DNA of 32,321 nt from Phycisphaeraceae bacterium (lineage in GTDB: Bacteria > Planctomycetota > Phycisphaerae > Phycisphaerales > Phycisphaeraceae), in the NCBI GenBank assembly GCA_020831765.1, contig JAFIFY010000061.1:1-32321 (forward strand). Reading direction: 5' to 3'. A program made the position numbers and the translations under genes. Each line of letters begins with the position of its first letter. Position 1 is the first letter of the stretch. Positions 5,813 through 32,321 of this stretch are shown here, in pieces. The notes under the pieces are model-generated. The model was not told the DNA's origin and searched no databases. It was given only the letters and a program-made list of their open reading frames with translations.

Positions 5813-5813
5813 G

Positions 5814-9834: not shown

Positions 9835-9843
9835 GGTGCTCCA

Positions 9844-12640: not shown

Positions 12641-13147
12641 TCAGCCGCCACGCATTGACAACGTCCGAATCAAGTCACTTACCCGGCCCGGAAGCCAGCC
12701 AAACGTGAGGCACCGTTGGGCCTCTCGATCTAGGCTTGATTCGTCAAGCGAGGAAACCCCCTCATACCCGGCGAACCGCCCGCGAAGTATCGCCATCACG
12801 TACAGCACCCGCGCAACATCTCGAGGCAAGTCGCCATCCCCGGCCAAGGATGCCTTAGCGTAGTTCTTGATTAGTTCGACAGCATCTTCCGCAGGCATCG
12901 CATCATTAAGGATCGAACCGAAAGTCGATTTTGAGCAACGACTTAGGATTGACGCCATCTGCTCGGCCGACTGACGGTTGGACTCAGCCAAACGATCAGA
13001 CTCCTGTGCAAGGGACACATCCAGCTGGTGCTCCAGAATAGCTCTGAGGTCGCTGGATGACCAAGGAACCGTATCGGGCAAAGCAGGGTCCATGAGCGCC
13101 CTGATTATGTCCTTGCTCTTTCGATTTGCAGTCGCTGGTTTGGCCAT
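12641..13147 (-). CDS. Protein of unknown function downstream of the sigma factor
   Basis: The protein has 168 residues from the ATG at 13147 (MAKPATANRK); a GTG at 13180 would add 11 residues but has no clear ribosome-binding site. I do not recognise a domain. It looks like a soluble, mostly helical protein: WSSSDLRAILEHQLDVSL, a polar helix with repeated Ser/Glu (SDRLAESNRQSAEQMASIL), and LPRDVARVLYVMAILRGRF near the C terminus. It follows the ECF-like sigma factor by 68 nt on the same strand and is closed by a terminator, so the two probably form a bicistronic unit. A regulator or partner of the sigma factor is possible by position, but no anti-sigma motif or membrane segment is visible. 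Confidence 0.7.
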   Translation of the reverse strand: MAKPATANRKSKDIIRALMDPALPDTVPWSSSDLRAILEHQLDVSLAQESDRLAESNRQSAEQMASILSRCSKSTFGSILNDAMPAEDAVELIKNYAKASLAGDGDLPRDVARVLYVMAILRGRFAGYEGVSSLDESSLDREAQRCLTFGWLPGRVSDLIRTLSMRGG

Positions 13148-13215
13148 CACAACACCACGCTCCGAGCACCAACTTTCCACCTGTCAATACACCACGGGCG
13201 GCCGCCTGTTGCGCG

Positions 13216-13935
13216 TCATCGCCCCACGATCTCGCGAAGATCCGCTATCTCTGCGTCAATCTGATCCTCATGCACGTACCGCCCGACTGCAAATCGTAAG
13301 TGCTTATTAAATAATCGTTTAGCGTTGGCCAGCAAGTTCATGGCCTGTCGTGGCGTTTGAATTCCCAGTTGACGCACCACGTCCTCGTAACTCGCCGGCT
13401 CTGCGTCCTGAAGCATTGGATCGGCGACCCTGAGGCAGAACACAGTCCACAAGTCTTTGCGGGAACGATCTCTGCAATCGACCTCCATCAGCCGCATGGC
13501 GTCCTGGACAACCTGCTGCACCCACTCCTGCTCGAAGCGGTCCGAGCCAGGCCGCGTGACATGAGCGGCGAGGGTGGCCCCGTCCAACCCCGCCCCCACG
13601 GCGCGGGTGGCGTACTCCCTCTTGAGCTTGCTGGTCACGAAATTGTTGAGCGATTTCAGGACGAAGTTGCGGAACTTGCCCTTCCCCTGTTCGGCATGGT
13701 GGACCAGTTTTCTGGCCAGGAACTTGTCCGCGATGAAGTCGTGGAGCAGGTCGTCAGCAAGGTCAGGTGAAACGCGGCGGACCTCGACCAGGAAGGATCG
13801 TAGCCCCGGCGTGTACGCCTGAAGCAGCTCGGCAAGCGCTTGTTGGCGCGTCAGTTCATCCGACCCCGAAGCTCGCCCGACCAGCGACCAGCGGGTTTCA
13901 GGAAATCGTGACGGCTTCATCTTCTCCGGCTGCAT
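13216..13935 (-). CDS. ECF-like sigma factor of the FPxTRWSLV type
   Basis: The protein has 239 residues. FPETRWSLVG (11-20) is the N-terminal signature of a group of ECF-related sigma factors that is abundant in Planctomycetota. Region 2 is seen around 35-90 (LADDLLHDFIADKFLARKLV, GKFRNFVLKSLNNFV). A region-4-like helical part is around 165-220 (YEDVVRQLGIQTPRQAMNLL, NAKRLFNKHLR). The expected role is to direct RNA polymerase to a special promoter set. GAGG six bases before the ATG at 13935 supports that start; an ATG five codons later is the alternative. In this phylum such sigma factors often neighbour Ser/Thr kinases; here a kinase lies on the other strand beyond the IS1380 transposase. 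Confidence 0.85.
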   Translation of the reverse strand: MQPEKMKPSRFPETRWSLVGRASGSDELTRQQALAELLQAYTPGLRSFLVEVRRVSPDLADDLLHDFIADKFLARKLVHHAEQGKGKFRNFVLKSLNNFVTSKLKREYATRAVGAGLDGATLAAHVTRPGSDRFEQEWVQQVVQDAMRLMEVDCRDRSRKDLWTVFCLRVADPMLQDAEPASYEDVVRQLGIQTPRQAMNLLANAKRLFNKHLRFAVGRYVHEDQIDAEIADLREIVGR

Positions 13936-14188: not shown

Positions 14189-15529
14189 ATGGGTGAAGCA
14201 CGCAAGGAAGCGTTACAGGTCGGTTTCGACGGCTCGGTCCGGCTGGAGTTCCACGGGGCCAAGGTCAGCAGCGACGGCGGGCTTCTGGCCTACCGCGATG
14301 TCGATGAAGCCCTGGACTTGACCGCGCCGGCCGCGGCGGCGTTGACCGAGTGGCGGACCGGCACCAACATCCGCCACTCGATGACGGCGCTGCTGCGGCA
14401 GTCGATCTACAGCCGTCTGGCGGGTTACGACGACCTCAACGACGCCCAGCGCCTGGCCGTGGATCCGGTGCTGCGGCAGGTGGTGGGCGGACGGGCGACG
14501 CAGAAGGAAGCCGCCTCCACCAGCCAGATGGCCCACTTCGAGACCCAGGTTCTGACTCAGGCCCAGAACCTGGCGGCGCTGCTGGACCTGCCGGGGCAGT
14601 GGATCGACCAGGCGCAACGCCGCCGTCCCTTGGATCGTCTCATCCTCGATCTGGACAGTTCGGTCAGCCAGACCCACGGCCGGCAGGAAGGCTCGGCCTA
14701 CAACGGCTACTTTGAGTGCACCTGCTATCACCCGCTGTTCTGCTTCAACCAGCACGGCGATCTGGAACGCGCCCTGCTCAGGAACGGCAACGTGGCCAGC
14801 GCCCACGACTGGCGGGCGGTGCTGGAACCCGTGGTGGCTCGCTACCGCCCCCGGAACATCAAGAAGCTGTTCCGGGGGGATGCGGGCTTCGCCCACCCGG
14901 AGGTCTACACCTTCCTGGAAGCCGAGGGCTACCTCTATGCCATCCGCCTGCCGGCCAATGACGTGTTGCAGCGGGAGATTGGGCACTTGATGACTCGGCC
15001 CATGGGCCGTCCCCCGGCCAAGCCCATCGTGCTCTTCCACGACTTCCACTACCGGGCCGCCAGTTGGGACCAGGCCCGCCGGGTGGTGGCCAAGGTCGAG
15101 TGGCACCAGGACGAGTTGTTCCCGCGCATCGGCTTCATCGTCACCAACCTGGGCGGCGGGGCCGCCCGCATAACCTGGTTCTACAACGGCCGGGGCACGG
15201 CCGAGCAGTGCATCAAGGAAGGCAAGCTGGCCCTGAACTGGACCCGGCTGTCCTGCCACGACTTCGCCGACAACCAGGTGCGACTGCAACTGTTCGCCCT
15301 GGCCTACAACCTGGGCAACTTCCTGCGGCGGCTGGCGCTGCCCACGGCCGTCAAGCACTGGACCCTCACCACGCTGCGCGACAAGCTGATCAAGATCGGG
15401 GCCAAGGTGGTGCACCACGCCCGGCGCGTGGTGTTCCAGTTGGCGGAGGTGGCGATCCCCCGGCCATTGTTCGCCGCCATCCTGCGGCGGATCGAGCGGC
15501 TGCGGCGGCTGGCCCCCGCGCCGACGTGA
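14189..15529 (+). CDS. IS1380-family transposase
   Basis: The protein has 446 residues, full length for the family. The DDE catalytic residues are visible: first Asp in LILDLDSSVSQTHG (D154 or D156), second Asp in FRGDAGFAHPEVY (D231), and the Glu in GTAEQCIKEGK (E339 or E344). Further family landmarks are LLAYRDVDEALDL near the N terminus and QLFALAYNLGNFLRRLALP near the C terminus. It catalyses cut-and-paste movement of its element. GGAAGGG eight bases before the ATG is a good ribosome-binding site. The frame is intact, so the element may be active. It lies between the minus-strand sigma-factor unit and the plus-strand kinase module. Confidence 0.95.
   Translation: MGEARKEALQVGFDGSVRLEFHGAKVSSDGGLLAYRDVDEALDLTAPAAAALTEWRTGTNIRHSMTALLRQSIYSRLAGYDDLNDAQRLAVDPVLRQVVGGRATQKEAASTSQMAHFETQVLTQAQNLAALLDLPGQWIDQAQRRRPLDRLILDLDSSVSQTHGRQEGSAYNGYFECTCYHPLFCFNQHGDLERALLRNGNVASAHDWRAVLEPVVARYRPRNIKKLFRGDAGFAHPEVYTFLEAEGYLYAIRLPANDVLQREIGHLMTRPMGRPPAKPIVLFHDFHYRAASWDQARRVVAKVEWHQDELFPRIGFIVTNLGGGAARITWFYNGRGTAEQCIKEGKLALNWTRLSCHDFADNQVRLQLFALAYNLGNFLRRLALPTAVKHWTLTTLRDKLIKIGAKVVHHARRVVFQLAEVAIPRPLFAAILRRIERLRRLAPAPT
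14189..15529 (+). mobile_element. IS1380-like insertion sequence (core only; ends not found)
   Basis: Only the transposase core is certain. I compared 14012-14188 with the reverse complement of 15530-15760 by eye and found no convincing terminal inverted repeats or target duplication. The real element should extend beyond the gene on both sides, probably within 13936-14188 and 15530-15713. Confidence 0.6.
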
Positions 15530-16140: not shown

Positions 16141-17316
16141 GTGACGATTCTTTCGCCTGGACAACTCGTGCGAGACACCTACGAGGTCGAGCGACTCCTC
16201 GGCGAAGGCGCGTTCGCCGAGGTCTATCGCGTGAAGCACCGCTTCATGGGCCGCCAAGCCATGAAGGTCTTCAAGGCCACTGGGGCGACACTTGAGGACA
16301 TCGAGCGAGACATCGCCGAGGCACTTCTCCTTTCCGGGATCAAGCATCCGAACATCGTGGAAGTCTATGACGCCAACGTGCTCGAAGCCAAGGCCGAGCA
16401 GTTCGGCTACTTCACGATGACCTACGTGCCGGGCGGTACTTTGGAGCGATACTGGCGGTCTTTCGCCAGCGAACTGATGCCCGTGGAACAGGTCGTCGAG
16501 GTAATGCGCCAGGCATGTCGTGGCCTGGCGGTCGCTCACTCATCCTCCCCTCCCATAGTCCATCGCGACATCAAGCCTCAGAACATCCTCGTCGGGTTCG
16601 GCGCGAGCGGCCTCCATGTCCGGCTCAGCGATTTCGGGCTGGCTAAGGCGGTCAACCCGCTGACCCTGCTGGTCAGCGCCAAGGGCACACTGGGGTTCAA
16701 GCCGCCCGAGTCGCTTGAGAACGTGGATTCCTGCGCCGCCGATGTGTGGGCCGTTGGCACGACCCTTTACCTTCTCCTGACCGACGAGATGCCGTTTCCG
16801 ATGCTCAACGAGCGGGACATTGAGGACGCCAACCGGTTTCTTCGGCCGATCCGTCCGCCGAGTATCTACAACGTCGGCATCGATGCCGGGTTGGAGTCGA
16901 TTATCTTTCGCTGCCTGGCTGCTCGGCCGGCGGACAGGTACGCCAACGCCAATGAACTCCTGCAGGACTTGGAGAAGTGGAGGCCCGGATTCAAGCCGCC
17001 TGGAACGTCGGTCAGCCAGTCGAGGCGCGGCTCGAAGTCGGCCATTGTTGAGCGTTCGCCCCACGATCTGAAGCGCGAGGCCAACAGCGCCCTTCAGGAA
17101 GCGATCCAGATCGCGCAGGATCCCGCGAAGCTTATGTCCGCCGCCGACCTGTTGGAGGAAGCCATATCCAAGGATCCTGCGCTCCGTGATCGGTATGAGT
17201 GGCAGTTGCAGCTCTGGCGCAAGGGCATCATGCATGTTTCGACGGCGGATCTGAGGCAGTTCCCAAAGCGGCTGAGTAGGCCAAACCAGTCTACGGGGGG
17301 CAACCGTGAGCAGTAA
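16141..17316 (+). CDS. Ser/Thr protein kinase
   Basis: The protein has 391 residues from the GTG at 16141, which has GAGG eight bases upstream; a GTG at 16099 is also in frame. It is a Hanks-type kinase: glycine loop GEGAFAEVY (21-29), ATP-binding K42 (QAMKVF), catalytic HRDIKPQNIL (141-150, D143), Mg-binding DFG (164-166), and GTLGFKPPE in the activation/substrate region. A linker and a helical tail (ANSALQEAIQIAQ, AADLLEEAISKDPALRDRYE) of TPR-like type follow. There is no membrane segment, so it is soluble. It is the first gene of a co-directional module with J-domain, GrpE-like, Hsp70-like and FHA proteins. I infer it phosphorylates one or more of them on Thr, giving the FHA protein its ligand. 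Confidence 0.93.
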   Translation: MTILSPGQLVRDTYEVERLLGEGAFAEVYRVKHRFMGRQAMKVFKATGATLEDIERDIAEALLLSGIKHPNIVEVYDANVLEAKAEQFGYFTMTYVPGGTLERYWRSFASELMPVEQVVEVMRQACRGLAVAHSSSPPIVHRDIKPQNILVGFGASGLHVRLSDFGLAKAVNPLTLLVSAKGTLGFKPPESLENVDSCAADVWAVGTTLYLLLTDEMPFPMLNERDIEDANRFLRPIRPPSIYNVGIDAGLESIIFRCLAARPADRYANANELLQDLEKWRPGFKPPGTSVSQSRRGSKSAIVERSPHDLKREANSALQEAIQIAQDPAKLMSAADLLEEAISKDPALRDRYEWQLQLWRKGIMHVSTADLRQFPKRLSRPNQSTGGNREQ

Positions 17317-17458
17317 TCTCGATCTATTCGCCGATCGTCGAACAGGCCCTTTGATTAGCTCGAATGCGGCCGCGCGTCCAGCAAGGTGCTCTCCACGCCG
17401 CGCAACGAATGCAGGGCGACTCGGTAGTATGCCGGGAAAGAACCGAGGATAGCCGACG

Positions 17459-20400
17459 ATGAACCAGACAGCCAACACCGAGCATCGTGCCGACTGCGAG
17501 CAACTCCTAGAGGTTGCGACGCCGCACATCTACCGTCGCAACCTTTTTCGCGTCCTTAACATCCCGGTCAACGCGACCTCAAAGGACGTTCAACGGCAGC
17601 AGACGCGCCGGAAGATGCAGGAGAAGCTTGGCATCGTTTCAGTTGCGCAGCACAACGGCCCACTCACCCTTGATCCACCGCCATCGGAAGAGGACATCCG
17701 CGCGGCGATGGAGCGTCTAAACAGCCCGATTGACCGCCTTCTTGACGAGGTATTCTGGTTCTGGCCGACCAACGGAGACGTCGCCGGCGACGATGCGCTC
17801 AAGGCGTTGGAAGAGGGGAACGTCAAGCGGGCTGCCGAGATATGGATGGGGCTGGCCAAGGTTGCCGGCGATGGCCACATCGCGACGCATAACCTGGCGG
17901 TTCTCGACCACATGGTCGCCCTCGACTACGAGGCCAAGCTGACGTCGTCGGGCCTCAGCAAGAAGGAACAGCAACAGCTTGAGGACCTCTGGGTTCGTGG
18001 CTTCGCCCGGTGGAAGGAAGTGGTGGATGGGGAGGACTTCTGGAGCGTGGTCAAGACTCGCGTTCGGGAGTTGAATGATACCCAACTCACCACCGGTTTC
18101 GTCCGCCGAGCGCGTGGCACGCTGCCGACTGCTTTGCTGCTAATTAGCGCCAAGATCGCCTACGCCGCCGCTGAGCGATCCGATATTGCCACCGCACAGC
18201 GCCACAGCAAGTTGCTCCGCGACGTGAACTTCGGTGACGGGCTTGCTGACGAGGCCATCCGTGAAGCCATCAGACCCATCCGCAACCGGATCAAGACGGC
18301 TGTCGACAAGGCCAAGAGCCGATGGACGAGCAAACCTCACCAAGGGAATCGGCATGTCCGCGAGCTATACGAGCAGAGCAAGGCGATGCTTGCTGTGGTG
18401 GATGCCATCCTCACAACGGAAGACCTAACGCGCGGGGGCATGCACGACACGGTTGCCGAGGCAATGCTTGAAGGCCAGATTGCATTCGGAAACAAGACCA
18501 ACGACTGGCAAGAGTGTATCCAACTCATTGAACTGGCACAGAAGCTCGCGCATGGCGGGACGGTGCAGTCTCGGCTGTCGGAGAACAAGGAGATTCTCAA
18601 GACGAATGCGGAGAGCGGAAATGACTGGTGTGCTCCGGGGTACTGGGACCAACCGGATGCTGTGGTCGCAGTTCTCGAATCGGCGCGTGATCTCGCCAAC
18701 GCGGGCAATTTCGACCGAGCCATTGGCGCATTGGTTGTTCTCGATCCTAAGATCGGCAAGCCGTTGCGGCGCGCCCTTGCATACTGTCTGAGCTTGCACA
18801 GCATCCGCGTTCACAACGAGGCTATGAGCGATTTGAATGTGGAGTCGGGCGTCATCAAGGAGATCATGGGCAGACTCCGGGGCGGCGGCGAGGCCGGCGT
18901 TATGCTGCTTCTCGCTCGTCGCCCCGATCCTAACTCACCAGCTTTCCTGAACCCTCCTTGCTTGTGTTGCGGAAGAACCGGCTATACTAGTTGGGTTAAC
19001 TTCACATATCGTGACATTCCATTGTTTATGTGCAGCACGTGTAGTTCGCGCCATGACCGTGAGCGCGAACAGATGAAGAGCAAGCTACGAGGGCACATGA
19101 GCACAGCCCTTGAGTACCTGCTTCTCGCCAACGAGGTGGACCCAGGCGACGCGGGGATCGTGCGGAATCTGAAGGTCCTCAAGGAAGCCGCCAGCGAGAT
19201 CAATTGCAGCACGCCGAAGACGAAATCACTCAAGGAGCGCCTGGGAGCACAGAAGGTCCGAGGAACGCGGCTGACGTTTGAGGAAGGGCCGCAACCCGAA
19301 ATCTGCCACTTCTGCGGCGAAGCCACAGGCGACAAGTCGTGTCACATCACGGTCCCGATGTGTGGCGATGTCAGGCCGGTCCGATTGCTGTTCAACGACG
19401 GCATCGAGTACCGCTATGCCGACGTCGTCGTTCCTCGCTGCCATCGTTGTCGCGATGAGCACCGCGAGCTGCCGGGCCGCATCGAAGCATGGCATGAAGC
19501 GCGGTTGGCGGCTGCGGACTACGAGCACTTCCCGAAAGAGGCTAACGCAGTAATCGCTGCTAAAGAGGCTGCCTCTGAAGCTGCGGCGTCTGTCGAGAAA
19601 TGTAAGCGATCAGTGGCGGAGGCGCAGACTGCCGTGGACCGGGCCGGTGCCATCGGCGGACAATGCGATCGGTGCAACTCCGACTCCCAATGGGTTGACG
19701 GCCTTTGCCGCCAGTGTGATAGACATGTCTATTGCCTGGGTACGTGGCAGAAGATTGGCGTGGCCGCCGCCGGCATCCTTCTACTCATCGGAGTGTTCGT
19801 CCTTCAACGTGATCTGGGCGTCCTATCTCCCATGGTGAATCTCGTCACCATGATGACCGGCTGGTCCAGCGGACTGGCCACGGCAGTATTCGGCGGAACA
19901 ATACCGTTTCTGGCCGTCGCGGGGCTCACCTGCACGCTGAAGCGTTCACAGTGGCGGCGGCGGCGTGGATTGCGCGAACAGCGGCAGGCGGATATTCGGC
20001 AGCGCCGCAACACGGCGATGGGCGAAGCCCAGAAGCGGCTCGACCAGGCAACATCCGCTTTGAAAACAGCAGAAGAGGCCGCGAAGAAACCGCTTGCCGC
20101 GCATGAGCACGCCCAGCGAAGGCTCCGAGAGGCCAGGGAGCAAGGGGTCCAGGAGTTTGAACGTACCTATCCCGAACCAAAGCTGCCGACCGGGGTCAAA
20201 CCCGAGTCCGCCTATGTTCAGTTCGGCCAGATACACGAATCGCTACAGCGGGGATGGGGCTTTGGGCATGAAGTGGGAGACGAAGGGAAAGCTGCAGCGA
20301 ACCAGCCAGTCAAGGTTGCCGGCCTGGTTGCCCGCGAACCACGCCCGGCCAAAGAACGCATCATTGTCGCCTGCCCAAAGTGCGGCAAGAAGCAGCGCAT

Positions 20401-21082
20401 CCCGAAGCGTGACGACGTAATCACCGTCAAGTGCCCCTGTGGCCAGCATTTCGAGTGCCGAAACGGGAACCCAGAGACTCTCGCGGAGATCATGGCCAGC
20501 AACGTTTACCGCTGGAAGGACAGCGGCGATCCAGAGCGGTGGGTCAAAGCCCAAAAGGGCTCGTGGAGTCATTCCGACTGGCAGAAGCTCTTGGCTACAC
20601 TGAAGCAATCCCAATACTGGCCAATGGGTGAAGATGCAATCGGGCATATCCTGGAGTCCATCAAGAAACGAGGCAAGGCGTCAGGGCGCGACCTAATTCT
20701 TGAGATAGCGCGTCAGGCGAGCGATGACGGTATGGTCTCCTGCCCCGTATGCAACGCCAAGGTCAAGGCCAAGAATCTCGTTCAGCACTACGACAAGAAT
20801 CACAAGGGCGCGGCCGTGCCGAGTACTCCATCCGGCGGGCAGAACACGGCCAAGAGCAGCAAGCCGGTTGGTTCTACAGCCGGGTCGGCCGGGGGCGCGA
20901 GCGCCAAGACAGCCACGTCTGATTCCAAGCCGAAGAATGCAGCAAACCGGCGCACGTCTGGGCGAACCACGTTGGTCGACGGAAATTGTCCGCACTGCGG
21001 CAAGAAGGGCACGTTCAGTCGGCCAGATTCTACTTTCTGGGCGGAATGCCCACTGTGCAAGGAACGGGTCTGGGTCGAGTAG
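17459..21082 (+). CDS. Large divergent J-domain protein with zinc ribbons and membrane segments
   Basis: The protein has 1207 residues; GAGGA nine bases before the ATG supports the start. Residues ~27-102 read NLFRVLNIPVNAT, then RLNSPIDRLLDEVFWFWP. This is the pattern of a divergent J-domain-like family that I associate with Hsp70-like neighbours; no HPD tripeptide is visible. A helical, probably TPR-like, region follows to ~490. Cysteine pairs of zinc-ribbon type occur near 500-530 (CLCC, CSTC), 616-662 (CHFC, CHRC), 735-755 (CDRC, CRQC), 971-993 (CPKCGKK, CPCG) and 1177-1200 (NCPHC, CPLC), plus a C2H2 finger near 1094 (CPVC...H...H). Two hydrophobic segments at about 765-785 and 810-825 anchor it in the membrane, with a coiled coil at 840-900. 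I infer a membrane-bound co-chaperone or scaffold for the Hsp70-like protein. Confidence 0.82.
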   Translation: MNQTANTEHRADCEQLLEVATPHIYRRNLFRVLNIPVNATSKDVQRQQTRRKMQEKLGIVSVAQHNGPLTLDPPPSEEDIRAAMERLNSPIDRLLDEVFWFWPTNGDVAGDDALKALEEGNVKRAAEIWMGLAKVAGDGHIATHNLAVLDHMVALDYEAKLTSSGLSKKEQQQLEDLWVRGFARWKEVVDGEDFWSVVKTRVRELNDTQLTTGFVRRARGTLPTALLLISAKIAYAAAERSDIATAQRHSKLLRDVNFGDGLADEAIREAIRPIRNRIKTAVDKAKSRWTSKPHQGNRHVRELYEQSKAMLAVVDAILTTEDLTRGGMHDTVAEAMLEGQIAFGNKTNDWQECIQLIELAQKLAHGGTVQSRLSENKEILKTNAESGNDWCAPGYWDQPDAVVAVLESARDLANAGNFDRAIGALVVLDPKIGKPLRRALAYCLSLHSIRVHNEAMSDLNVESGVIKEIMGRLRGGGEAGVMLLLARRPDPNSPAFLNPPCLCCGRTGYTSWVNFTYRDIPLFMCSTCSSRHDREREQMKSKLRGHMSTALEYLLLANEVDPGDAGIVRNLKVLKEAASEINCSTPKTKSLKERLGAQKVRGTRLTFEEGPQPEICHFCGEATGDKSCHITVPMCGDVRPVRLLFNDGIEYRYADVVVPRCHRCRDEHRELPGRIEAWHEARLAAADYEHFPKEANAVIAAKEAASEAAASVEKCKRSVAEAQTAVDRAGAIGGQCDRCNSDSQWVDGLCRQCDRHVYCLGTWQKIGVAAAGILLLIGVFVLQRDLGVLSPMVNLVTMMTGWSSGLATAVFGGTIPFLAVAGLTCTLKRSQWRRRRGLREQRQADIRQRRNTAMGEAQKRLDQATSALKTAEEAAKKPLAAHEHAQRRLREAREQGVQEFERTYPEPKLPTGVKPESAYVQFGQIHESLQRGWGFGHEVGDEGKAAANQPVKVAGLVAREPRPAKERIIVACPKCGKKQRIPKRDDVITVKCPCGQHFECRNGNPETLAEIMASNVYRWKDSGDPERWVKAQKGSWSHSDWQKLLATLKQSQYWPMGEDAIGHILESIKKRGKASGRDLILEIARQASDDGMVSCPVCNAKVKAKNLVQHYDKNHKGAAVPSTPSGGQNTAKSSKPVGSTAGSAGGASAKTATSDSKPKNAANRRTSGRTTLVDGNCPHCGKKGTFSRPDSTFWAECPLCKERVWVE

Positions 21083-21183
21083 CGCGAGTGAGGCGCAACA
21101 CGACGAAATGGCAGAGGTAGTAGCAGGCAGCCGACCGGCAGCACAAGAGCATGCAGAATCGGCCTGCAACAGGAACCTGGAAC

Positions 21184-22095
21184 ATGAATGACAAGACACA
21201 AGGTGAAGACGGCATGCCCAACATCCACGGCAGCATCCTGGATGGCATTCGCCAAGTCTGGTTCCCGGCAGAGTTCCGTATCGCAGCACCGGGCCTGCCG
21301 CTGGATATGCTGGAGATCGTTGACGCTGAGGCTCAGGCCGCCCCCTACGCTCAAGCAACAGATGGCGGTGCTGGCATCAATGACTCGATAGTCTCCAACA
21401 AGCTTGCAGCAGAATTCGCAACCTGCCTGTGGTATCTCAAGACGAAGCACTTCAAGCGTGAATGGGATGATGATGAGACGGGTGACGACGATCCTCGTGT
21501 GCGGCGAGCGCTGGGGCGACTTAACAAGAGCATCGAAGCGCTCGGCGAAAGCGGAATCGAAGTCCATGACCCGACAAACAAGCGTTATCCCGCTGGCGGC
21601 GAGGGCATGATGCGGCCGATTCAACTTGTTCCCACTGCGGGCATCACGTTTGAGGTCGTTACGGAGACGGTGGCCCCCATCATCTACCGGGACGACCGGC
21701 TCATCCAACGCGGCGAGGTGTTCGTCGCTGTGCCGAAGGAGGACTCCGTGGCTGCAACCGGTTTTGATACGGCTTCCCCGCCCGCTGCAAAGGCTCCCTC
21801 ACAGGAGCATGATCCCACCGACTCCTCTGCGCCGGCGGCCTCTTCGGCAGAGGCACCATCCGCCCAACATGAGTCAAGAGATGTCCATGGCGACACCTCT
21901 TTGGATGTCGATGGAGCAGTGGGGAACGCGACTGCGCAGACGGACGACGCGCCTCAGCGTGACCACATGGCCAGGGGTTCCGAGGCCAAACAAGCACCGG
22001 TCACCAGCGAGGCTGAATCAACATCGGTGCCAGAGGCAACTGAAGAGCCACAACAGGAACAGCATGACGGCGACTCTACGAAGTCCTGCAACTGA
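21184..22095 (+). CDS. GrpE-like protein with long disordered tail
   Basis: The protein has 303 residues from the ATG at 21184; an in-frame ATG at 21214 is the alternative. Residues ~70-185 resemble a GrpE head: helical LGRLNKSIEALGESGIEVHD, then TNKRYPAGGEGMM, IQLVPTAGITFEVVTETVAP and DRLIQRGEVFVAVP. This follows the GrpE beta-wing pattern in which a conserved P-x-I and a geV-x-V strand close the domain. The last ~115 residues are Ala/Pro/Ser/Glu-rich and probably disordered. GrpE proteins exchange nucleotide on DnaK. Placement directly before the Hsp70-like gene (29-nt gap) fits this role. The similarity is remote and rests on pattern reading, so a different phospho- or adaptor function is possible. 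Confidence 0.6.
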   Translation: MNDKTQGEDGMPNIHGSILDGIRQVWFPAEFRIAAPGLPLDMLEIVDAEAQAAPYAQATDGGAGINDSIVSNKLAAEFATCLWYLKTKHFKREWDDDETGDDDPRVRRALGRLNKSIEALGESGIEVHDPTNKRYPAGGEGMMRPIQLVPTAGITFEVVTETVAPIIYRDDRLIQRGEVFVAVPKEDSVAATGFDTASPPAAKAPSQEHDPTDSSAPAASSAEAPSAQHESRDVHGDTSLDVDGAVGNATAQTDDAPQRDHMARGSEAKQAPVTSEAESTSVPEATEEPQQEQHDGDSTKSCN

Positions 22096-22124
22096 GAACA
22101 ATACCGGCCAGAAAGGGCTTGACG

Positions 22125-24626
22125 ATGCAACGCACGACCATCGATTTTGGCATTGACCTGGGCACGACCAACAGCACCATCGCGGTAATTGACGGCACTG
22201 ACGCAAAGGTGATTCCAAACAAGGGCGGTTCCGTCATTACAGCATCAGCCGTGTGGATCGACAAGCGCGGCAGCATGCATGTTGGCCAAGAGGCCAAACT
22301 GCGCGCTTTGGTCGAGGATCAGGACAATGCCGATCTGGAATTCAAGCTCCGCATGGGTCTGGGCGCTGAAGGAAAGAAGGTATTTGCCCGCAGCGGCCGG
22401 GAGATGCTCCCTGAGGAGTTGTCGGCTGAGGTGCTCAAGTCCTTGAAGATGGACGTGCAGACCAGCATGGGGGAAGAAGTCCGGGCGGCGGTAATCACCG
22501 TGCCTGCGGCCTTCGAGAACCCGTCGACCAATGCCACGATGAAGGCGGCTAAGCTGGCCGGCTTTGCCAAGAGCCCGCTGCTGCTTGAGCCGGTCGCTGC
22601 CTCTCTGGCCTACGGCTTCCAAAGCGAGAACGACAACGTCTACTGGTTCACCTACGACTTCGGCGGCGGCACGTTCGACGCGGCTGTCATGCGCATCCGC
22701 GACGGTTTGATCCAGGTCGTGAACCATGACGGCGACAACTTCCTGGGAGGGAAGCTCATCGACTGGGACATCGTGACGAAAAAGCTTGTCCCGGCGATCA
22801 CCAGCCAGTTCAACCTGCCAGAGTTCCGACGGGGCAACCCGCGATGGAAGGCCGCGATCGGCAAGATGAAGTACTACGCCGAGCTTGCGAAGATCGAGGT
22901 CTGCCGGTCAAAGGCATCGCATGAGGTCTGGATCGAGGGGCTCTGCGAAGATGCCGATGGCAAGGCCGTGGACTTCGCCTACACACTGACCCCAGCGGAC
23001 GTGGAGGACGTGAGCAAGCCCTACATCGAAAAGTCACTGCTTCTTTGCCGCAAGACCTTGGAGCGGTCCGGCCTGACCGGCAAGGACATGGAGCGCATCC
23101 TGATGGTCGGCGGGACAACCTTGAACCCATGGGTGCGAGACGCGGTGCAGTCGGAACTCGGCAGCCAAGTGGAGTTCGGAATCGACCCGGTCACCGTGGT
23201 CGCTCGTGGTGCCGCCATCTTTGCCAGCACGCAATCGTTGCCCAAGGACACTAGCGTCCCCGTGCCAACGGGCACCTGGTCAATTGAGATCGAACACAAA
23301 CCAGTAGGCAATGTGCCCGATCCGGACATCGGCGGACGCGTTATTGCCCCCGATGGCCGGAGTACCGAGAACTTCACGATCGAGCTCGTTGACGGCAAGA
23401 CGCAGTGGAGGTCCGGTCGGATCAGGCTTGATGCGAGTGGCGTGTTCATGACGCAGCTATATGCAGAGAAGCAGCAACGGCACGAATACCGGATCGAGCT
23501 TTGCGATACCCATGGAACTCGCGTGCCCACCTCGCCTGACAGCGTCGCCTATACGCTGGGCGTGATACCCGAGGAAAACCCTCCGGCTGCGATGACAATC
23601 GGCATCGGCCTGGCCAATGGAAGCGTGGCGACCTATGTCAAGAAAGGTACGAAGCTCCCGGCACGCAAGTCGATGGACCACTACACCACGGTTCCACTCG
23701 GGGCCGGCCGCGCCGACGATGTGTTGCGAATTCCGTTGTTGGAGGGCGAGCATCCTCGTGCGGAGCGCAACCACGGAATCGGCGTCATGGAGATTGCCGG
23801 CTCCGACATCCGACGCGATCTACAGACCGGGAGTCAAGTCGAGATTACGCTGATCATGGACACGTCTCAGCAGATTCGCCTTCAGGTCTTCATCCCTTCC
23901 CTCGACGAGGACTTCGAGAAACCGTTCGATCCCCAGATGAAGCATAACTCGCTTGCGGAGCTCCGCCAAGAGGTGCATCAAGAGAAGGCGCGGTTAGCGA
24001 GCGCACGCGAGAAAGCGGAGAAGAACAAGGCATTGAAGGCCGACGCGGCCTTGTCACGTATTCAGGATCAGCAGATGCTCGAGCAGGTTGACGCGTTGAT
24101 CGAAGCGGCGGACAGCGACCGCGACGCGGTCGCCCAACTCGACCGTCGCTTGCGTGAGCTGGCAGCAGCCGTGGACGAGGTTGAGGACTCAGTCGAGTGG
24201 CCGGTTCTCTTGGAGAAGGCTGAGGTGTCCAGGAACGATGCGGAGAAGGTTATCGGCGAATACGGAGATACGAGCGACCGCAACCGTCTTGCCTCACTTA
24301 AGGAAGGGCTTCAGCGTGCGATTGATGCTGGAGACCCGGACGTCGTGCGGAGGTACATCGGCGATCTTGATGGCCTGTACTTTGATGTCATCAACCGGCA
24401 GCCCGGCTTCCACGTGGGTCGGTTCAACTGGCTTGTTGAGCGAGCGCAGTCTATGCGCGACCCAGGCCAAGCGGAACAGATTATCGCCCAGGGACGACGT
24501 GCCATAAACAATAATGACGTCGATGCACTGAAGGCGGCAAATCGTCAACTGATGTCCCTGCTGCCACGTGATGTCCAAGAGGAAGCGAAGCACGCCAATG
24601 TTGGCGGGACGATCACAAGGGAGTGA
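22125..24626 (+). CDS. Hsp70-like (DnaK-family) chaperone with extended C terminus
   Basis: The protein has 833 residues from the ATG at 22125 (AAAGGG about eight bases upstream); a TTG at 22119 is open but less likely. The actin-fold ATPase is clear: phosphate-1 GIDLGTTNSTIAV at the N terminus, VPAAFENPSTNATMKAAKLAG, LLEPVAASLAYG, phosphate-2 YDFGGGTFDAAV, and the adenosine motif ILMVGGTTLNP with GAAIFAS. The usual DnaK substrate-binding sequence is not recognisable; residues ~395-600 look beta-rich but divergent, and a long charged coiled coil (about 615-720) follows. Normal DnaK has about 640 residues, so this is a specialised paralogue. With J-like and GrpE-like genes upstream it forms a private chaperone machine. 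It could remodel or sense a specific client. Confidence 0.92.
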   Translation: MQRTTIDFGIDLGTTNSTIAVIDGTDAKVIPNKGGSVITASAVWIDKRGSMHVGQEAKLRALVEDQDNADLEFKLRMGLGAEGKKVFARSGREMLPEELSAEVLKSLKMDVQTSMGEEVRAAVITVPAAFENPSTNATMKAAKLAGFAKSPLLLEPVAASLAYGFQSENDNVYWFTYDFGGGTFDAAVMRIRDGLIQVVNHDGDNFLGGKLIDWDIVTKKLVPAITSQFNLPEFRRGNPRWKAAIGKMKYYAELAKIEVCRSKASHEVWIEGLCEDADGKAVDFAYTLTPADVEDVSKPYIEKSLLLCRKTLERSGLTGKDMERILMVGGTTLNPWVRDAVQSELGSQVEFGIDPVTVVARGAAIFASTQSLPKDTSVPVPTGTWSIEIEHKPVGNVPDPDIGGRVIAPDGRSTENFTIELVDGKTQWRSGRIRLDASGVFMTQLYAEKQQRHEYRIELCDTHGTRVPTSPDSVAYTLGVIPEENPPAAMTIGIGLANGSVATYVKKGTKLPARKSMDHYTTVPLGAGRADDVLRIPLLEGEHPRAERNHGIGVMEIAGSDIRRDLQTGSQVEITLIMDTSQQIRLQVFIPSLDEDFEKPFDPQMKHNSLAELRQEVHQEKARLASAREKAEKNKALKADAALSRIQDQQMLEQVDALIEAADSDRDAVAQLDRRLRELAAAVDEVEDSVEWPVLLEKAEVSRNDAEKVIGEYGDTSDRNRLASLKEGLQRAIDAGDPDVVRRYIGDLDGLYFDVINRQPGFHVGRFNWLVERAQSMRDPGQAEQIIAQGRRAINNNDVDALKAANRQLMSLLPRDVQEEAKHANVGGTITRE

Positions 24627-24662
24627 GGCTGCGTCAGTATCGAAGTGACTGGAGACACATTG

Positions 24663-25643
24663 ATGGCAAATCTAGGCATGATCGAACAGCTTGAGATTGT
24701 CGCGCGGACTGAGGCCAGCGAGGTACTGCCGGCACGCTTCGGTGTCCATATGGATAAACGTGCATTGGCCGGGAACTTCCTGAAGTATGACGAGGCCGAA
24801 ATTGCTGGCCACGTCGACCGAATCGTGTCATTGGTCTCGAACGACACCATCCTCCAATGCCCCTGCTGCCCGGAGAGTCTTTCGGCGACTTCCTTGAAGG
24901 CCCATTGTGATGAGCACAAGGCTGCGGGACAGTTGAGGCCATTTCTCGGTTTGGCGGCTCAAGGCGCACTGCTGTCAGAGTCGATTGGACGCGGTCCAAC
25001 TATTGGCCAAATCGAGGAACGGATTAGACGAGCTCAGGCCCTGTCCACTTCACCTGAGACTCTGGAACAGGCGATTCACCTCCTTCAGATGGCCGCCAGA
25101 GATTATCCGCCTCACCGACGGAGACTGTCCCGGGCTTTAGAGGAATGGCAGGCACGACTTGCATCCCTTCGACCCAGGCCAGAATCCCCAGGACACGGTC
25201 TCAGCCTGACAACTCCTGTTCTATGCGAATCGTCGGCACGCCTCCACGAGTATCTTGATGCCATCATGTGCCCCTGGGGCGAACCGTGCTACTGGGCTCC
25301 CGCTGCAGTTCATGCTGCGGTGGGTATACACCACACCGAGGAATATGACGTGCGCTGCACTTGCGGGCAGCACAGCTTGCGGCTCTTTGTTGCTATTGGC
25401 AAGACGGAATGCGTCCGGCCGCCAGGAAGCGCCGGGTGGACGCTTGGCAGAGGACTTCCGCTTCACGCCAAGGCTAAGCAGTACCAGGCGTTGGCCTTGT
25501 GGGAGGCAATCTGTTCGGACGGGGGAACGTGCTCCCGCTGTGACCACAAGGGTGAAGCCGATGCGGATTTCCGGGTAAGCCTGGGCCGGGGCGGAATCAG
25601 CGTCCTCTGCCAGCACTGCGGTCATCCGCAGGCATCAGACTAG
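24663..25643 (+). CDS. Zinc-finger/zinc-ribbon protein of unknown function
   Basis: The protein has 326 residues from the ATG at 24663, with GGAG eight bases upstream. I do not recognise the whole family. Residues 66-85 form a C2H2-like finger (CPCC, 11 residues, H81, three residues, H85), which resembles the C2H2 finger at residue ~1094 of the J-domain protein. A helical middle (115-180) carries Leu/Ala-rich segments. The C-terminal third is cysteine-rich, with CTCGQ, CSRCDHKG and CQHCGH likely forming a zinc ribbon. It lies 36 nt after the Hsp70-like gene and 22 nt before the next gene, so it belongs to the module. An adaptor for protein or nucleic-acid contact is a reasonable guess only. 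Confidence 0.8.
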   Translation: MANLGMIEQLEIVARTEASEVLPARFGVHMDKRALAGNFLKYDEAEIAGHVDRIVSLVSNDTILQCPCCPESLSATSLKAHCDEHKAAGQLRPFLGLAAQGALLSESIGRGPTIGQIEERIRRAQALSTSPETLEQAIHLLQMAARDYPPHRRRLSRALEEWQARLASLRPRPESPGHGLSLTTPVLCESSARLHEYLDAIMCPWGEPCYWAPAAVHAAVGIHHTEEYDVRCTCGQHSLRLFVAIGKTECVRPPGSAGWTLGRGLPLHAKAKQYQALALWEAICSDGGTCSRCDHKGEADADFRVSLGRGGISVLCQHCGHPQASD

Positions 25644-25665
25644 ATGGCCTTGGAGGCTCCACACC

Positions 25666-26811
25666 ATGCGACTATGGACAGGATCAACCACTGACTCGGA
25701 TGCGAGCAGACCCCGACACCACAACAGGAACGGCCGGCTGTTCGCCATGGCGACATCTATCGCCCGCAAAGGCCGCTACGCCGAGGCCACCAAGGTTCTG
25801 CGCCGTGCCCTGGAAACTGGCGACTGCTCTGAATCGGAGGCGCTGGATCTTCAGGCGCGCATCTACGCGCAACAGGGGTTATACTTGCAGGCCGAGGCCT
25901 GCTGGCAGCAGGCCAAGCAGTTAGGCGGACCGAGCAGTCTGTACGACGATGCCATTGCCCAATTGAGACGGTCACGTCTGCCAACCGTGCGCGCTCTGCG
26001 AATCTTTATGGGTGGGACGGCGTTGGTCTTCTTAGCCCTACTGCTGTGGCAGGTTCTCGTGGCGACTCCGACCATTTCACGTCAGTTGGAGGACCAGCAA
26101 GCATCGGTCGCCTTGCTTCGGTCCGCATTGGATGAAGCGAGCGAAACTGCCGAGCAGAGAGACCGCGACGTCACCGAGACTATTGCATCCCTTGGGCGCG
26201 ACAGCGTGGCTCGCGATGCCCTGCTTGCCGAGCACGTTGGTTTGCTTGTGACAGCACGGGGGGCGGCCGAGGATCGCGCTGCTGTGCTTGCCGGTTTGGA
26301 GGCGGCGTCCGGAGAACTGCGAAGGGCTGTCGAAGCCGCGGCCGCTGGGCTGGCCTCACAGCAGGGCGAGGCTAACGCCGCGGCGGAGAAGCGACTTGGT
26401 GCCCTCCAAACCGGGGTCGCCGAGTTGTCCAAGGCGCTCGGATCAACCGAGGCATCTCTGCTGAAACACACAGAGGCCACCCAAGGCGCAACGGAGAAGC
26501 GCCTTACTGCCCTCCAGGCCGAGGTCGCCGAAGTGTCCAAGGCTCTCCGATCAACCGAAGCCGCTCTGCTAAAGCGTGCTGAAATGACTGACGCCGCAAT
26601 CACTCACATCAGCGGCGGGATGAAGCGGCTGCCATCGGCGGACACCATCGCTGCTCTCGACAAGCGAGTCACTCAGCTTCAGGAGCAGTTGGCCGGCATC
26701 GCTGCCGCAGTAGAGGCAATGCGGAAGCAGATGCCCGCTGAGAATAAGCCGTCCGGAGACACTGACACGACAACCGCCCCAACGACGCAGGCAACTGGGG
26801 TACTGCCATAG
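25666..26811 (+). CDS. TPR-membrane-coiled-coil protein
   Basis: The protein has 381 residues; GGAGG nine bases before the ATG supports the start. Residues ~25-95 look like two TPR units (GRYAEATKVLRRALETGD, then GLYLQAEACWQQAKQLGG). One membrane helix lies at ~110-133 (IFMGGTALVFLALLLWQVLV). The rest (135-350) is Ala/Glu-rich coiled coil, with a tail of Thr/Pro. Two copies of a 36-residue repeat (from about 240) contain EKRLGALQ/EKRLTALQ and LSKALGSTEASLLK/VSKALRSTEAALLK. It is likely an inner-membrane anchor with TPR on one side and a long rod on the other. In the module it may tether the soluble kinase or Hsp70 to the membrane together with the J-domain protein. Confidence 0.8.
   Translation: MRLWTGSTTDSDASRPRHHNRNGRLFAMATSIARKGRYAEATKVLRRALETGDCSESEALDLQARIYAQQGLYLQAEACWQQAKQLGGPSSLYDDAIAQLRRSRLPTVRALRIFMGGTALVFLALLLWQVLVATPTISRQLEDQQASVALLRSALDEASETAEQRDRDVTETIASLGRDSVARDALLAEHVGLLVTARGAAEDRAAVLAGLEAASGELRRAVEAAAAGLASQQGEANAAAEKRLGALQTGVAELSKALGSTEASLLKHTEATQGATEKRLTALQAEVAEVSKALRSTEAALLKRAEMTDAAITHISGGMKRLPSADTIAALDKRVTQLQEQLAGIAAAVEAMRKQMPAENKPSGDTDTTTAPTTQATGVLP
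26382..26590 (+). repeat. Two-copy 108-bp tandem repeat in the coiled-coil gene
   Basis: GGAGAAGCG at 26385 recurs at 26493, and the following 80 bases match closely (TCCAAGGC, GATCAACCGA, CTCTGCT). The period is 108 bp, or 36 codons, in frame. This indicates rod growth by internal duplication. Confidence 0.75.
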
Positions 26812-26875
26812 CCTGACCGAGATGTCCACACACCATGGCCCATGAACCAATGGTGGCATCAGGGAAGCCAAACCA

Positions 26876-27595
26876 ATGCCATACAATTACGACGTCACAT
26901 GCAATAGGTGCGAGTTCCGGCAGATTCCAGTGTGTGACAACCCCTCTAACCGTGCCCTTCGTGTCCAGTTCCTCAAGGCATTCATCAACTGGACGCTCCA
27001 CCGAACGCTTCCCGGTCGCAGACGGCGTCAGGATGCTGAGAGTCTTAGAGATGCGGTGCTTAGAATGAACGCCGCTTATTGCGCTGATGGCATTTGCGGG
27101 TATTACGTCTGCCACGACGGCACAGAGGTTCCCATACCTGCGCAAACGGCATGGTGTCAACACTGTGGCAAAGTAGTTAGTGCGGAACGATGCCCTGATG
27201 TAGATGAGATAGACAGATGGATTGCAGATGCTCCTCAGTATCGTCATGAGCTTGAGTGTATACGACGATGGCGTCTTCTTCGCAAATCGCCGCCCAGGTG
27301 TCTCATATGTGGCGACACTGCGGTTACGCGATACTCTGATGAGATCGTGTTCATGCCACCTTATCCCTTCCCGACCTCCGACTATTCGATTGCAAGTCTT
27401 GCGTTTCCGGACCACATGCTGGCTGTGCATCCAGGTTGCCAGGGCACGCTGCTGTTTCGCTGTGTGGGGCATGCAAGCAGATTTCGTGATCGTAGCCATA
27501 AGAACTGCTATTCACCCGAGGGAGTTCTGGTGTTGCGAGCCGGACAAGACAGGGCCGATTCGCAAGGGACACCAGGAACCAGGAAGCCTGGATGA
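26876..27595 (+). CDS. Cysteine-rich protein of unknown function
   Basis: The protein has 239 residues. No domain is recognised. Cysteine pairs suggest several zinc sites: CNRC at 9-12, CADGICGYYVC near 69-79, CQHCGK near 94-99 and CLICGD in the middle, plus a later C-H-C rich patch (HPGCQGTLLFRCVGH). The sequence is soluble, without signal peptide or membrane segment. AGGGA lies about 11 bases before the ATG. The local base composition is visibly less GC-rich than in the flanking modules. It is 9 nt upstream of the FHA gene and so is probably co-translated with it. The open plus frame at 27222-27653 is out of frame and not called. Confidence 0.75.
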   Translation: MPYNYDVTCNRCEFRQIPVCDNPSNRALRVQFLKAFINWTLHRTLPGRRRRQDAESLRDAVLRMNAAYCADGICGYYVCHDGTEVPIPAQTAWCQHCGKVVSAERCPDVDEIDRWIADAPQYRHELECIRRWRLLRKSPPRCLICGDTAVTRYSDEIVFMPPYPFPTSDYSIASLAFPDHMLAVHPGCQGTLLFRCVGHASRFRDRSHKNCYSPEGVLVLRAGQDRADSQGTPGTRKPG

Positions 27596-27604
27596 GGTTA
27601 CCTT

Positions 27605-28162
27605 GTGCGAGAGCCGAAGGACCCAGAGCGTATGGAACGAGAGGAACTCATAGGCGTGGCTCTTAAGGCGGATCGGCTCATTCTGGAGTCGCGTCTCCGT
27701 GACATTGCGATCATAGCGCAGGCAGGCCGTAGCGACCGAGTAAGAGCGATTGCGGGTGTCATATCCAAGTTGCGCCCAGGGGCATATCTGATAGGCTGCG
27801 GCCCCTACACCTGCGGGGTTCTGCCGCTCACCGTCGAGGAGGTGGTGCTTGGCCGGCCTCCGTCACCCCTTGAGTCGCTCCCGGATTCGGTGGCCGACTA
27901 CACGCTCAACGACGCCGTGTGGATGTTGCCTCGCGAGGCATCACGAATCCATGCCACGATCATCTGTCGACAGGAGAATGGTGCAAAGACCTACTGGGCC
28001 AGGGACGAGGGAAGCCGAACAGGAACCTATGTCAATTGCCGAAGAGTGGGAGTAAACGAGCACGGCGAGATCACTGGCGAGACGGTGGAGTTGTCGAGTG
28101 AAGATGTAGTCTCACTTGGGCCGTCTGGGGTAAACTGCTACGTGTTTCTCGTGATGCCATGA
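27605..28162 (+). CDS. FHA-domain phosphopeptide-binding protein
   Basis: The protein has 185 residues from the GTG at 27605 (GAGG seven bases upstream); an ATG at 27632 is the alternative. Residues ~75-183 form an FHA domain: VVLGRPP (conserved GR), EASRIHATI (the S-x-x-H pair), WARDEGSRTGTYVN with the conserved Asn, then ETVELSSEDVVSLG and YVFLV as the closing strands. FHA domains bind phosphothreonine. The N-terminal ~70 residues are helical and may hold a partner site. Because the module opens with a Ser/Thr kinase, I infer that this protein reads a mark set by that kinase on a module member. Confidence 0.88.
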   Translation: MREPKDPERMEREELIGVALKADRLILESRLRDIAIIAQAGRSDRVRAIAGVISKLRPGAYLIGCGPYTCGVLPLTVEEVVLGRPPSPLESLPDSVADYTLNDAVWMLPREASRIHATIICRQENGAKTYWARDEGSRTGTYVNCRRVGVNEHGEITGETVELSSEDVVSLGPSGVNCYVFLVMP

Positions 28163-28243
28163 TCAAGGATGGCAATCCGTAGCATGACCACGAGTGCTCA
28201 GTGTCCCAACGTGCCCGCAAGACGTCAGGCAGACAGGTCACCT

Positions 28244-28555
28244 ATGGCAGAGATGAAGCATAGCATCCAGAGGCGGTGTAGAGAGCATTTGGGTCGCTTC
28301 TTCGCCAGCTACCACGACCCGACGATGCAGAAGTCGGCTATGAAGGCATTGCGGTTCCTGACGGCGTGTGACGGTTCGTTGAGCGGCAAGCCGGAGGGAT
28401 GGGCGGCAGGGATCGTGTACTTCATTGCCAACCGCGGCGGACGACCGCGTGGCGTGCCGGGTCTCCTGAACGCCGACTTCGCGCAATTCTTCGGCGTCTC
28501 GATGAGCGTCATCCGGAGGCGGGCCGCGCAGGTCGAGCGGGCGCTGGAGATCTGA
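28244..28555 (+). CDS. Small HTH-like protein, possibly DUF6398-like
   Basis: The protein has 103 residues from the ATG at 28244; the open frame reaches back to 28169. The C-terminal half reads GWAAGIVYFIANR, then LLNADFAQFFGVSMSVIRRR and ERALEI, which looks like a cyclin-like/HTH fold where FGVSMSVIRRRAA is a recognition helix. The pattern resembles a domain I recall as DUF6398; that name is tentative. It follows the FHA gene by 81 nt and may be the last gene of the module or an independent one. Its stop is 2 nt from the stop of the convergent phage-like gene. Confidence 0.65.
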   Translation: MAEMKHSIQRRCREHLGRFFASYHDPTMQKSAMKALRFLTACDGSLSGKPEGWAAGIVYFIANRGGRPRGVPGLLNADFAQFFGVSMSVIRRRAAQVERALEI

Positions 28556-32120: not shown

Positions 32121-32321
32121 GATCCGATCCCCAGGCCCGCGAAGCTGCCATCCTCGTAGACCTTCTCGACGTAGGCAGCCACGGGGCGCTTGACCAGCGC
32201 CTTGGCCGCGCCATCCTCGGCATCCTGGTAACGCACCCACAGGTACTCCCAGCCCTTCTTGTCGATGGGTCCGATGCCACCGACCATCAGACCGGTGGCG
32301 TTGGGCGAGCCGGCGAAGCGG
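32117..32321 (-). CDS. Phage-like protein, partial (5' end off window)
   Basis: Only the last 67 codons are present, in a different frame from the large gene that follows. The sequence has FAGSPNATGLMVGGIGPIDK, then KGWEYLWVRYQDAEDG and ends GSFAGLGIGS. Its TGA overlaps the next ATG (ATGA), as in translationally coupled phage genes. I do not recognise the family; the position suggests another tail or virion-associated gene. Confidence 0.65.
   Translation of the reverse strand, partial: RFAGSPNATGLMVGGIGPIDKKGWEYLWVRYQDAEDGAAKALVKRPVAAYVEKVYEDGSFAGLGIGS

Follow-up and report, generated by a model that had tools for sequence, protein, structure and literature searches.

A recurring gene set of a protein kinase, a divergent Hsp70 and J-like and GrpE-like proteins in a Phycisphaeraceae bacterium and other prokaryotes

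Background

The closest described system to the gene set analysed here is the Hsp70 theme of the GAP1-N2 GTPase systems (Kaur et al. 2020). The gene set lies in a stretch of 32,321 nucleotides from a Phycisphaeraceae bacterium (GenBank assembly GCA_020831765.1, contig JAFIFY010000061.1), the whole of which is called the window below. It is referred to as the module and consists of nine open reading frames (ORFs), A to I, including a protein kinase (A), a J-like membrane protein (B), a GrpE-like protein (C) and a divergent Hsp70 (D). According to the GAP1-N2 paper (PMC7159879), one theme of these systems combines HSP70, GrpE and DnaJ, and another combines a kinase, PP2C and vWA proteins. Since the three themes are called non-overlapping there, kinase and Hsp70 are not joined in them. 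As described there, the GAP1-N2 theme resembles the module in its dedicated Hsp70, GrpE and J or tetratricopeptide repeat (TPR) proteins, which are located in a predicted conflict operon. However, these systems are centred on a GAP1 protein and GTPases, and the comparison with the module is one of descriptions only. Membership was rejected because no GAP1-N2 match (PF20013) was found in the whole host genome and no GAP1 domain was found in the module proteins with Pfam. Three other plasmid Hsp70 neighbourhoods, inspected for a GAP1-N2 example, had none annotated.

In E. coli, an Hsp70-fold protein, a kinase and a PP2C phosphatase are likewise neighbours in yegD-yegI-pphC-yegL. In contrast to D, which has a region resembling the substrate-binding domain (SBD), YegD is 450 amino acids (aa) long and stops at the end of its ATPase domain. 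The yegD stretch contains no GrpE or J gene. A relation to YegD/YegI was rejected based on this SBD-like region and on the E-value of 2.9 between the window kinase and YegI. TerY-P systems feature a vWA protein, a PP2C phosphatase and a kinase, and membership in these was rejected as Pfam reported no vWA or PP2C match in the window module. An earlier note on this DNA, made from the sequence alone, had contrasted the module with yegD/yegI on the same grounds. This holds for the window but not for the whole family, as the related locus L072 carries a PP2C gene.

Another Hsp70-like protein in defence-type operons is CnuD of the CoCoNuT systems (PMC11090510). As described in that paper, it is linked to McrB/McrC GTPase-nuclease modules and its ATPase motifs are degenerate, whereas those of D are kept; GrpE and DnaJ are not mentioned in the main text. 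The general DnaK-DnaJ-GrpE machine shares three matching roles with the module, and the Hsp70 ATPase residues are retained in D. The module differs from it by the lack of the HPD motif, of the ATPase-domain arginine and of the linker, by an extra interdomain segment of about 100 residues, by a membrane anchor and by the kinase. The missing elements are those of the known trigger, in which, according to PMC7289447, the HPD motif of the J-domain acts on an arginine of the ATPase domain (R167 in DnaK) that pairs with an Asp of the linker. No description of a kinase-J-GrpE-Hsp70 operon was found in the literature searched, a search with most subscription papers and bioRxiv preprints outside its scope.

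Results

The divergent Hsp70

D (22119..24626, plus strand, first ATG at 22125) encodes a protein of 835 aa that matches PF00012 with an E-value of 1.3e-68, in agreement with the enlarged Hsp70-like protein proposed in the earlier note. The best-matching stretch is the ATPase domain (residues 10-370). It is followed by an extra segment (residues ~372-490) at the place of the DnaK linker, a region matching the SBD of DnaK and a C-terminal part, whose profile is matched by ordinary DnaKs mostly from about column 110 onward. The phosphate-binding and catalytic motifs of Hsp70 ATPases are retained in the alignment of D proteins, with L073 as the exception for the first motif, its ORF beginning at the contig end.

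By alignment, 121 residues lie between the ATPase domain and the SBD of the window protein, and this spacing ranges from 117 to 129 residues in the D family compared to 16 to 18 in four DnaKs from the phylum. None of the 23 D proteins has an equivalent of R167, and no linker-like motif was found when these 23 were scanned for one. The arginine and the short linker are kept in the four DnaKs and in HscA and HscC of E. coli. On the side of the partner, the HPD motif, which J-domains carry between helices II and III, is absent from the J-like region of all 13 B proteins. The standard J-domain/Hsp70 trigger is missing on both partners, which is new.

A similar case was found on a plasmid of Nostoc sp. 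UHCC 0302 (L104, 5818-8749), where a private set of TPR, J, GrpE, Hsp70 and TPR proteins is encoded. Its J-domain has FPA in place of HPD (by eye), and its Hsp70 has Q in place of R167. In contrast to the module, its DnaJ and GrpE are recognised by Pfam, the linker is retained and no kinase is annotated within 7 kb. This looks like a separate, independent paired loss of HPD and R167 at the sequence level. The two cases raise the idea that private Hsp70 sets tend to abandon the standard switch.

Occurrence and gene order

Relatives were gathered with D in overlapping draws, and 24 loci including the window were analysed. Members were found in 3 of 392 genomes of the phylum, 12 of 397 of the class and 4 of 51 of the family, and four loci came from named genomes (L039 being the same place as L006). 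In the plasmid draw, 227 records had a match; in 14 of them it covered at least 80% of the query, and eight of these 14 were opened. In the phylum draw, 40 of the 392 genomes matched at E ≤ 0.001; three were counted as members and the remaining matches (E 6e-7 or weaker) were taken as ordinary DnaK. The two weakest rows of the class draw (G425, G643), with matches confined to a part that ordinary DnaK also matches, were dropped. In most of these genomes, scoring was limited to four candidates, and the genome counts are therefore lower bounds. L046 nearly duplicates L044 and has its D divided between two ORFs, and L071, L073, L075, L077 and L078 end at a contig end close to the set.

In these comparisons, the four genes A to D recur together as a unit. 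In 22 of 24 loci, C is the gene immediately before D, the exceptions being L073, where the contig starts at D, and L076. Twenty of these C genes were found at E ≤ 1e-10 (10 of them contained in the profile) and two, in L041 and L074, by an iterated profile. B is present in 13 loci, 10 at E ≤ 1e-10 (five in the profile) and three in L074 (2.2e-9), L075 (1.7e-7) and L076 (1.4e-10). The kinase was found in 10 loci, all of which also hold B, C and D. Eight show the order A-B-C-D (window, L006, L038, L040, L041, L069, L070 and L072) and two the order B-C-D-A (L007 and L043). Eight of the ten kinases are firm, and a profile built without the kinases of L069, L070 and L072 recovered these three at 1e-130 to 1e-146. 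The kinase-linked loci belong to Planctomycetota, Actinocatenispora, a Bacteroidota plasmid and a Methanobrevibacter metagenome-assembled genome (MAG). The earlier note had stated that its view would fall if the genes turned out not to be conserved as neighbours or if the system was known under another name; A-B-C-D recur across phyla.

The same threshold applied to 20 ordinary DnaK loci from the phylum gave no B, no C and two kinase matches (1.6e-37 and 3e-40). In a tree of the 23 D proteins and four DnaKs, eight of the ten kinase-linked rows form one group together with L073 (support 96/91), and the positions of L007 and L043 are unresolved. L038 is the nearest relative, with identities of 75 (A), 47 (B), 71 (C) and 74% (D) over the aligned parts. 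F was found in seven of the 24 loci and directly follows D in six, with E intervening in the window; E, G and I have no match in the other 23 loci.

A clean profile of eight kinases was used for the kinase count and the control. The ATPases of L044-L046 and L048 had been drawn into an iterated kinase profile, probably via L043, and were rejected as kinases. In L071, a kinase on the opposite strand at a distance of about 3 kb (3.7e-31) was weaker than the control matches and was left out of the count. An apparent C-D fusion in L041 was rejected as an ORF artefact because D has its own start and the frame of C is broken.

The opened proteobacterial loci contain no such kinase and no B according to these profiles. 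An ATPase gene follows D in L044-L046 and L048 (AAA in L044 by Pfam and in L045 by annotation), and a second partner family is common to L044, L045, L047, L048 and L049. This proteobacterial branch (L044 8618-20247, L045, L046, L048) combines GrpE-like protein, Hsp70 and ATPase with further partners, which include peptidoglycan-binding proteins in L044-L046. E. coli genomes contained no near match of the Shewanella set, and no relative was found in viral contigs and phage records; tblastn with C-terminal pieces of D was too insensitive.

The J-like and GrpE-like proteins

B (17459..21082, plus strand) encodes 1207 aa with a J-like region (residues ~25-100), a helical repeat array, CxxC pairs and a predicted transmembrane (TM) segment at 764-782; such segments are predicted in 10 of 13 B proteins. 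A profile of the J-like region (13 rows) aligned with the host DnaJ across almost the entire J-domain (hhalign p 0.00086 compared to 0.74 for the control, with a probability of 23.6%), the target side being in effect one sequence. With a B profile against PDB sequences, six of 14 weak matches were J-domains (E 0.36-1.8), with unrelated proteins ahead at 0.25-0.27. An AF2 model of residues 1-450 (pLDDT 79) places helices 29-32, 41-56, 77-87 and 90-98 in J-domain order, followed by the helical array, with a loop of low confidence at 61-68.

C (21151..22095, plus strand) has a GrpE-like core at residues ~90-200 and a long polar C-terminal tail. Its profile (22 rows) gave a collinear, weak match to the C-terminal part of the host GrpE (hhalign p 0.0066, probability 5.8%; control p 0.78), the target side again being in effect a single sequence. 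A profile of the C core (19 rows) against PDB sequences had GrpE 4ani at the top with an E-value of 0.1, followed by an unrelated chain at 0.14. The J label for B and the GrpE label for C are suggested by these weak but specific matches. Because the matches are weak, B is termed J-like and C GrpE-like, and neither is called a family member.

Kinase and accessory proteins

The co-directional set of kinase, Hsp70, J, GrpE and FHA genes reported in the earlier note was recovered as nine ORFs on one strand (16099/16141-28555). Counted from 16141, the gaps from A to I are mostly short, with 142, 68, 23, 18, 22, 64, 9 and 6 bases. A (16141..17316, plus strand) is a Ser/Thr protein kinase, as the note had stated, with 391 aa from the GTG at 16141 in an ORF that opens at a GTG at 16099. 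It matches Pkinase at 4e-41 (Pfam), and K, HRD and DFG are all present. Its C-terminal tail, of the type AADLLEEAIxKxPxLRDRYxxQLxLWRKGI, is common to relatives, and most linked kinases have it.

The three accessory zinc or membrane proteins of the note correspond to E (24645..25643) and G (26876..27595), both on the plus strand and with CxxC pairs, and to F (25666..26811, plus strand), a TPR-like protein with one predicted TM segment (110-128) and a coiled-coil-like C-terminal part. B and F are the only module proteins of the window with predicted TM segments. The FHA protein of the note is H (27605..28162, plus strand; PF00498, 4.7e-8). It carries the Arg, Ser-x-x-His and Asn residues of the FHA motif. 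I (28169..28555, plus strand) is a DUF6398 protein (PF19935, 3.1e-7), and whether it belongs to the module is doubtful. No known anti-phage system was recognised with the models of PADLOC 2.0.0 (E ≤ 0.1): C, D, E, G, H and I had no match, A matched generic kinase models, and F (best ZorA, 2e-5) and B (0.052) gave weak matches. No promoter-like site was found on the coding strand.

Host genome, neighbourhood and mobility

The window is an entire contig (C4) of a genome of 4.7 Mb that is 98% complete. The genome encodes an ordinary DnaK (contig C118) and a DnaJ-GrpE pair (contig C82) elsewhere, and the module is therefore a second, private chaperone set. A transposase (DDE_Tnp_1_4, 14189-15529, Pfam 3.2e-132) precedes it. 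Further upstream lies a restriction operon (3498-12219, minus strand). Besides a type I R subunit, it encodes an M subunit with a match to specificity models in its C-terminal part, and it also holds genes for an AAA protein, a response regulator and a histidine kinase with HEAT repeats. Both neighbours had been named in the earlier note and are real. The histidine kinase/response regulator pair adjoining the restriction genes struck us as unusual. Two small genes between this operon and the transposase (12641-13935, minus strand) are without a significant Pfam or PHROG match, and a regulator at 652-2034 combines a periplasmic-binding-like domain with an AraC-type HTH. Downstream of the module, a protein of 893 aa with internal repeated segments (by eye) is encoded at 29559-32240 on the minus strand. 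It had no match in Pfam or PHROG; the phage-like genes that the note had placed here are not supported, and a phage origin was rejected for want of a PHROG match.

The GC content at third codon positions is 0.52-0.78 in the module compared to 0.81-0.92 in the flanking genes and 0.79-0.84 in dnaK, dnaJ and groEL of the host. Kinase-linked loci range from 35 to 75% GC. Members of the family are found on plasmids and, in Shewanella (L044) and Aeromonas (L046), behind Tn7-like tns genes. Defence neighbours are BREX (L043), Zorya (L048) and the type I restriction genes of the window. In the Methanobrevibacter MAG (L040, 589-4974), two genes directly precede the kinase-Hsp70 set, with gaps of 3 and 26 bases. 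One encodes a double-TIR protein that also has pectate-lyase-like repeats, and the other encodes a ClpB-like AAA protein. The 35% GC of this contig agrees with a low-GC methanogen, but a MAG contig may be misassigned. Drawn from these neighbours, the link to defence is no more than suggestive.

Other neighbours include two phosphatase genes, PP2C beside D in L072 and a calcineurin-like phosphoesterase after F in L040. PG_binding_1 proteins follow D in L038 and L044 and are annotated in L045 and L046. A gene for an M50-type peptidase follows the FHA gene in L069 (5013-6314), which could suggest intramembrane proteolysis, and a secretin-domain gene lies upstream of C in L077.

Discussion

These results are best read as a kinase-linked Hsp70 machine that is mobile, is tethered to the membrane and serves in stress or conflict, a reading to which we assign slightly less than an even chance. 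The gene observation of the earlier note was confirmed, and its interpretation is partly supported. We infer regulation of the chaperone by phosphorylation from the common C-terminal tail of the kinases, the FHA proteins in three of the 24 loci and the phosphatase genes that adjoin D or F in two relatives. In such a machine, B would tether D at the membrane and present clients through its helical array, and C would exchange nucleotide on D. Since the HPD-arginine-linker switch is gone, the machine is probably controlled in another manner, and A would set the duty cycle by phosphorylating B, C, D or a client. In some members, the FHA protein H would read and gather the complex once it is phosphorylated. 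The phosphorylated state would be reset by a phosphatase, PP2C in L072 and a calcineurin-like enzyme in L040. The most likely use would be an answer to envelope stress or to an invasion by DNA or phage, in which an effector protein is remodelled or armed.

Several results weigh against this reading. Within the available stretch, such a kinase is absent from 14 of the 24 loci, and in these, too, the D family is without the trigger. The loss therefore did not require the kinase, and phosphorylation is at most one among several replacements. The arginine is also missing in YegD and in a Paenarthrobacter plasmid Hsp70 (it is kept in a Priestia one), so its loss alone is not unique. One of the linked kinases looks inactive. 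That of L043 has HNE for HRD (8e-38), and that of L041 lacks the catalytic-loop stretch (8.5e-42) in a locus with a broken C frame; both score about as well as the two control kinases. The kinase ORF of L006 does not align at the glycine loop, and about 1.9 kb separate B and C in this locus. FHA proteins occur in only three of the 24 loci, with orthologues of H in L069 and L073. Since all searches began from D, they would miss any kinase of this type that is not linked to D. With a gap of 142 bases between A and B, the genes may not form a single transcript, and none of the Pfam matches of the window module is a nuclease or toxin domain.

The labels of the two partners are subject to similar reservations. 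Each of the J-like and GrpE-like assignments is weak when taken by itself (hhalign probability 23.6% for B and 5.8% for C), and Pfam gave no J-domain match for B and no GrpE match for C at E ≤ 1. Fold searches with the 450-aa model of B showed no prominent J-domain among the matches listed (50 each), nearly all of which were proteins with helical repeats or bundles (Foldseek E ≥ 0.07). For C, a longer profile (10 rows) did not retrieve GrpE from PDB sequences, and the AF2 model was unusable (pLDDT 43). The weaker tests incline towards the labels that the earlier note had given to B and C.

The module could instead be an envelope or surface machine outside defence, in which a membrane-tied Hsp70 assembles or exports a surface structure and the kinase acts as an environmental sensor. 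We regard this as somewhat unlikely. It would explain the predicted TM segments in B and in F of the window, the PG_binding_1 proteins of L038 and L044-L046, the M50 peptidase of L069 and the secretin-domain gene of L077. However, no surface or secretion gene is common to the kinase-linked loci among the neighbours scanned, and the patchy distribution, the carriage on plasmids and with Tn7-like genes and the defence neighbours suit an accessory role in conflict or stress at least equally well.

The occurrence of D without such a kinase in 14 loci, together with the ATPase gene that follows D in four of them (L044-L046 and L048), would fit a chaperone core that is not regulated by the kinase at all. 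The kinase would then act on another product of the operon and be co-located since the operon moves as a unit. This is rather improbable, given that every counted kinase adjoins B, C and D, that most have the common tail, and that in L043 the kinase-like domain is part of a protein annotated as AAA ATPase beside B-C-D. A GAP1-N2 conflict system that has lost its GTPase would share the same chaperone trio, the TPR repeats and the membrane features, as described in PMC7159879. We consider this very improbable, since neither a GAP1-N2 match in the genome nor a GAP1 domain in the module was found, with the Hsp70s compared by description only.

The kinase-linked Hsp70 machine for stress or conflict is preferred. 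A bolder version would make the family an undescribed class of Hsp70 machine, in which the trigger of HPD, ATPase-domain arginine and linker was discarded on both partners and replaced by phosphorylation by the co-encoded kinase. This class would serve immunity or stress at the membrane and would have spread horizontally among bacteria and to an archaeon. We consider this version unlikely.

Conclusions

The contact between HPD, arginine and linker is the accepted trigger of Hsp70, and a natural family that lacks this contact on both sides, yet retains the ATPase and J-like and GrpE-like partners, would reveal by what other means the cycle is driven. The module may also represent a chaperone set without cross-talk to the cell's own DnaK. 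According to PMC12169576, phage sensing by bNACHT25 depends on DnaJ, which makes chaperone-based immunity a timely subject. With its mobility and its neighbours, the family would be a candidate for such immunity.

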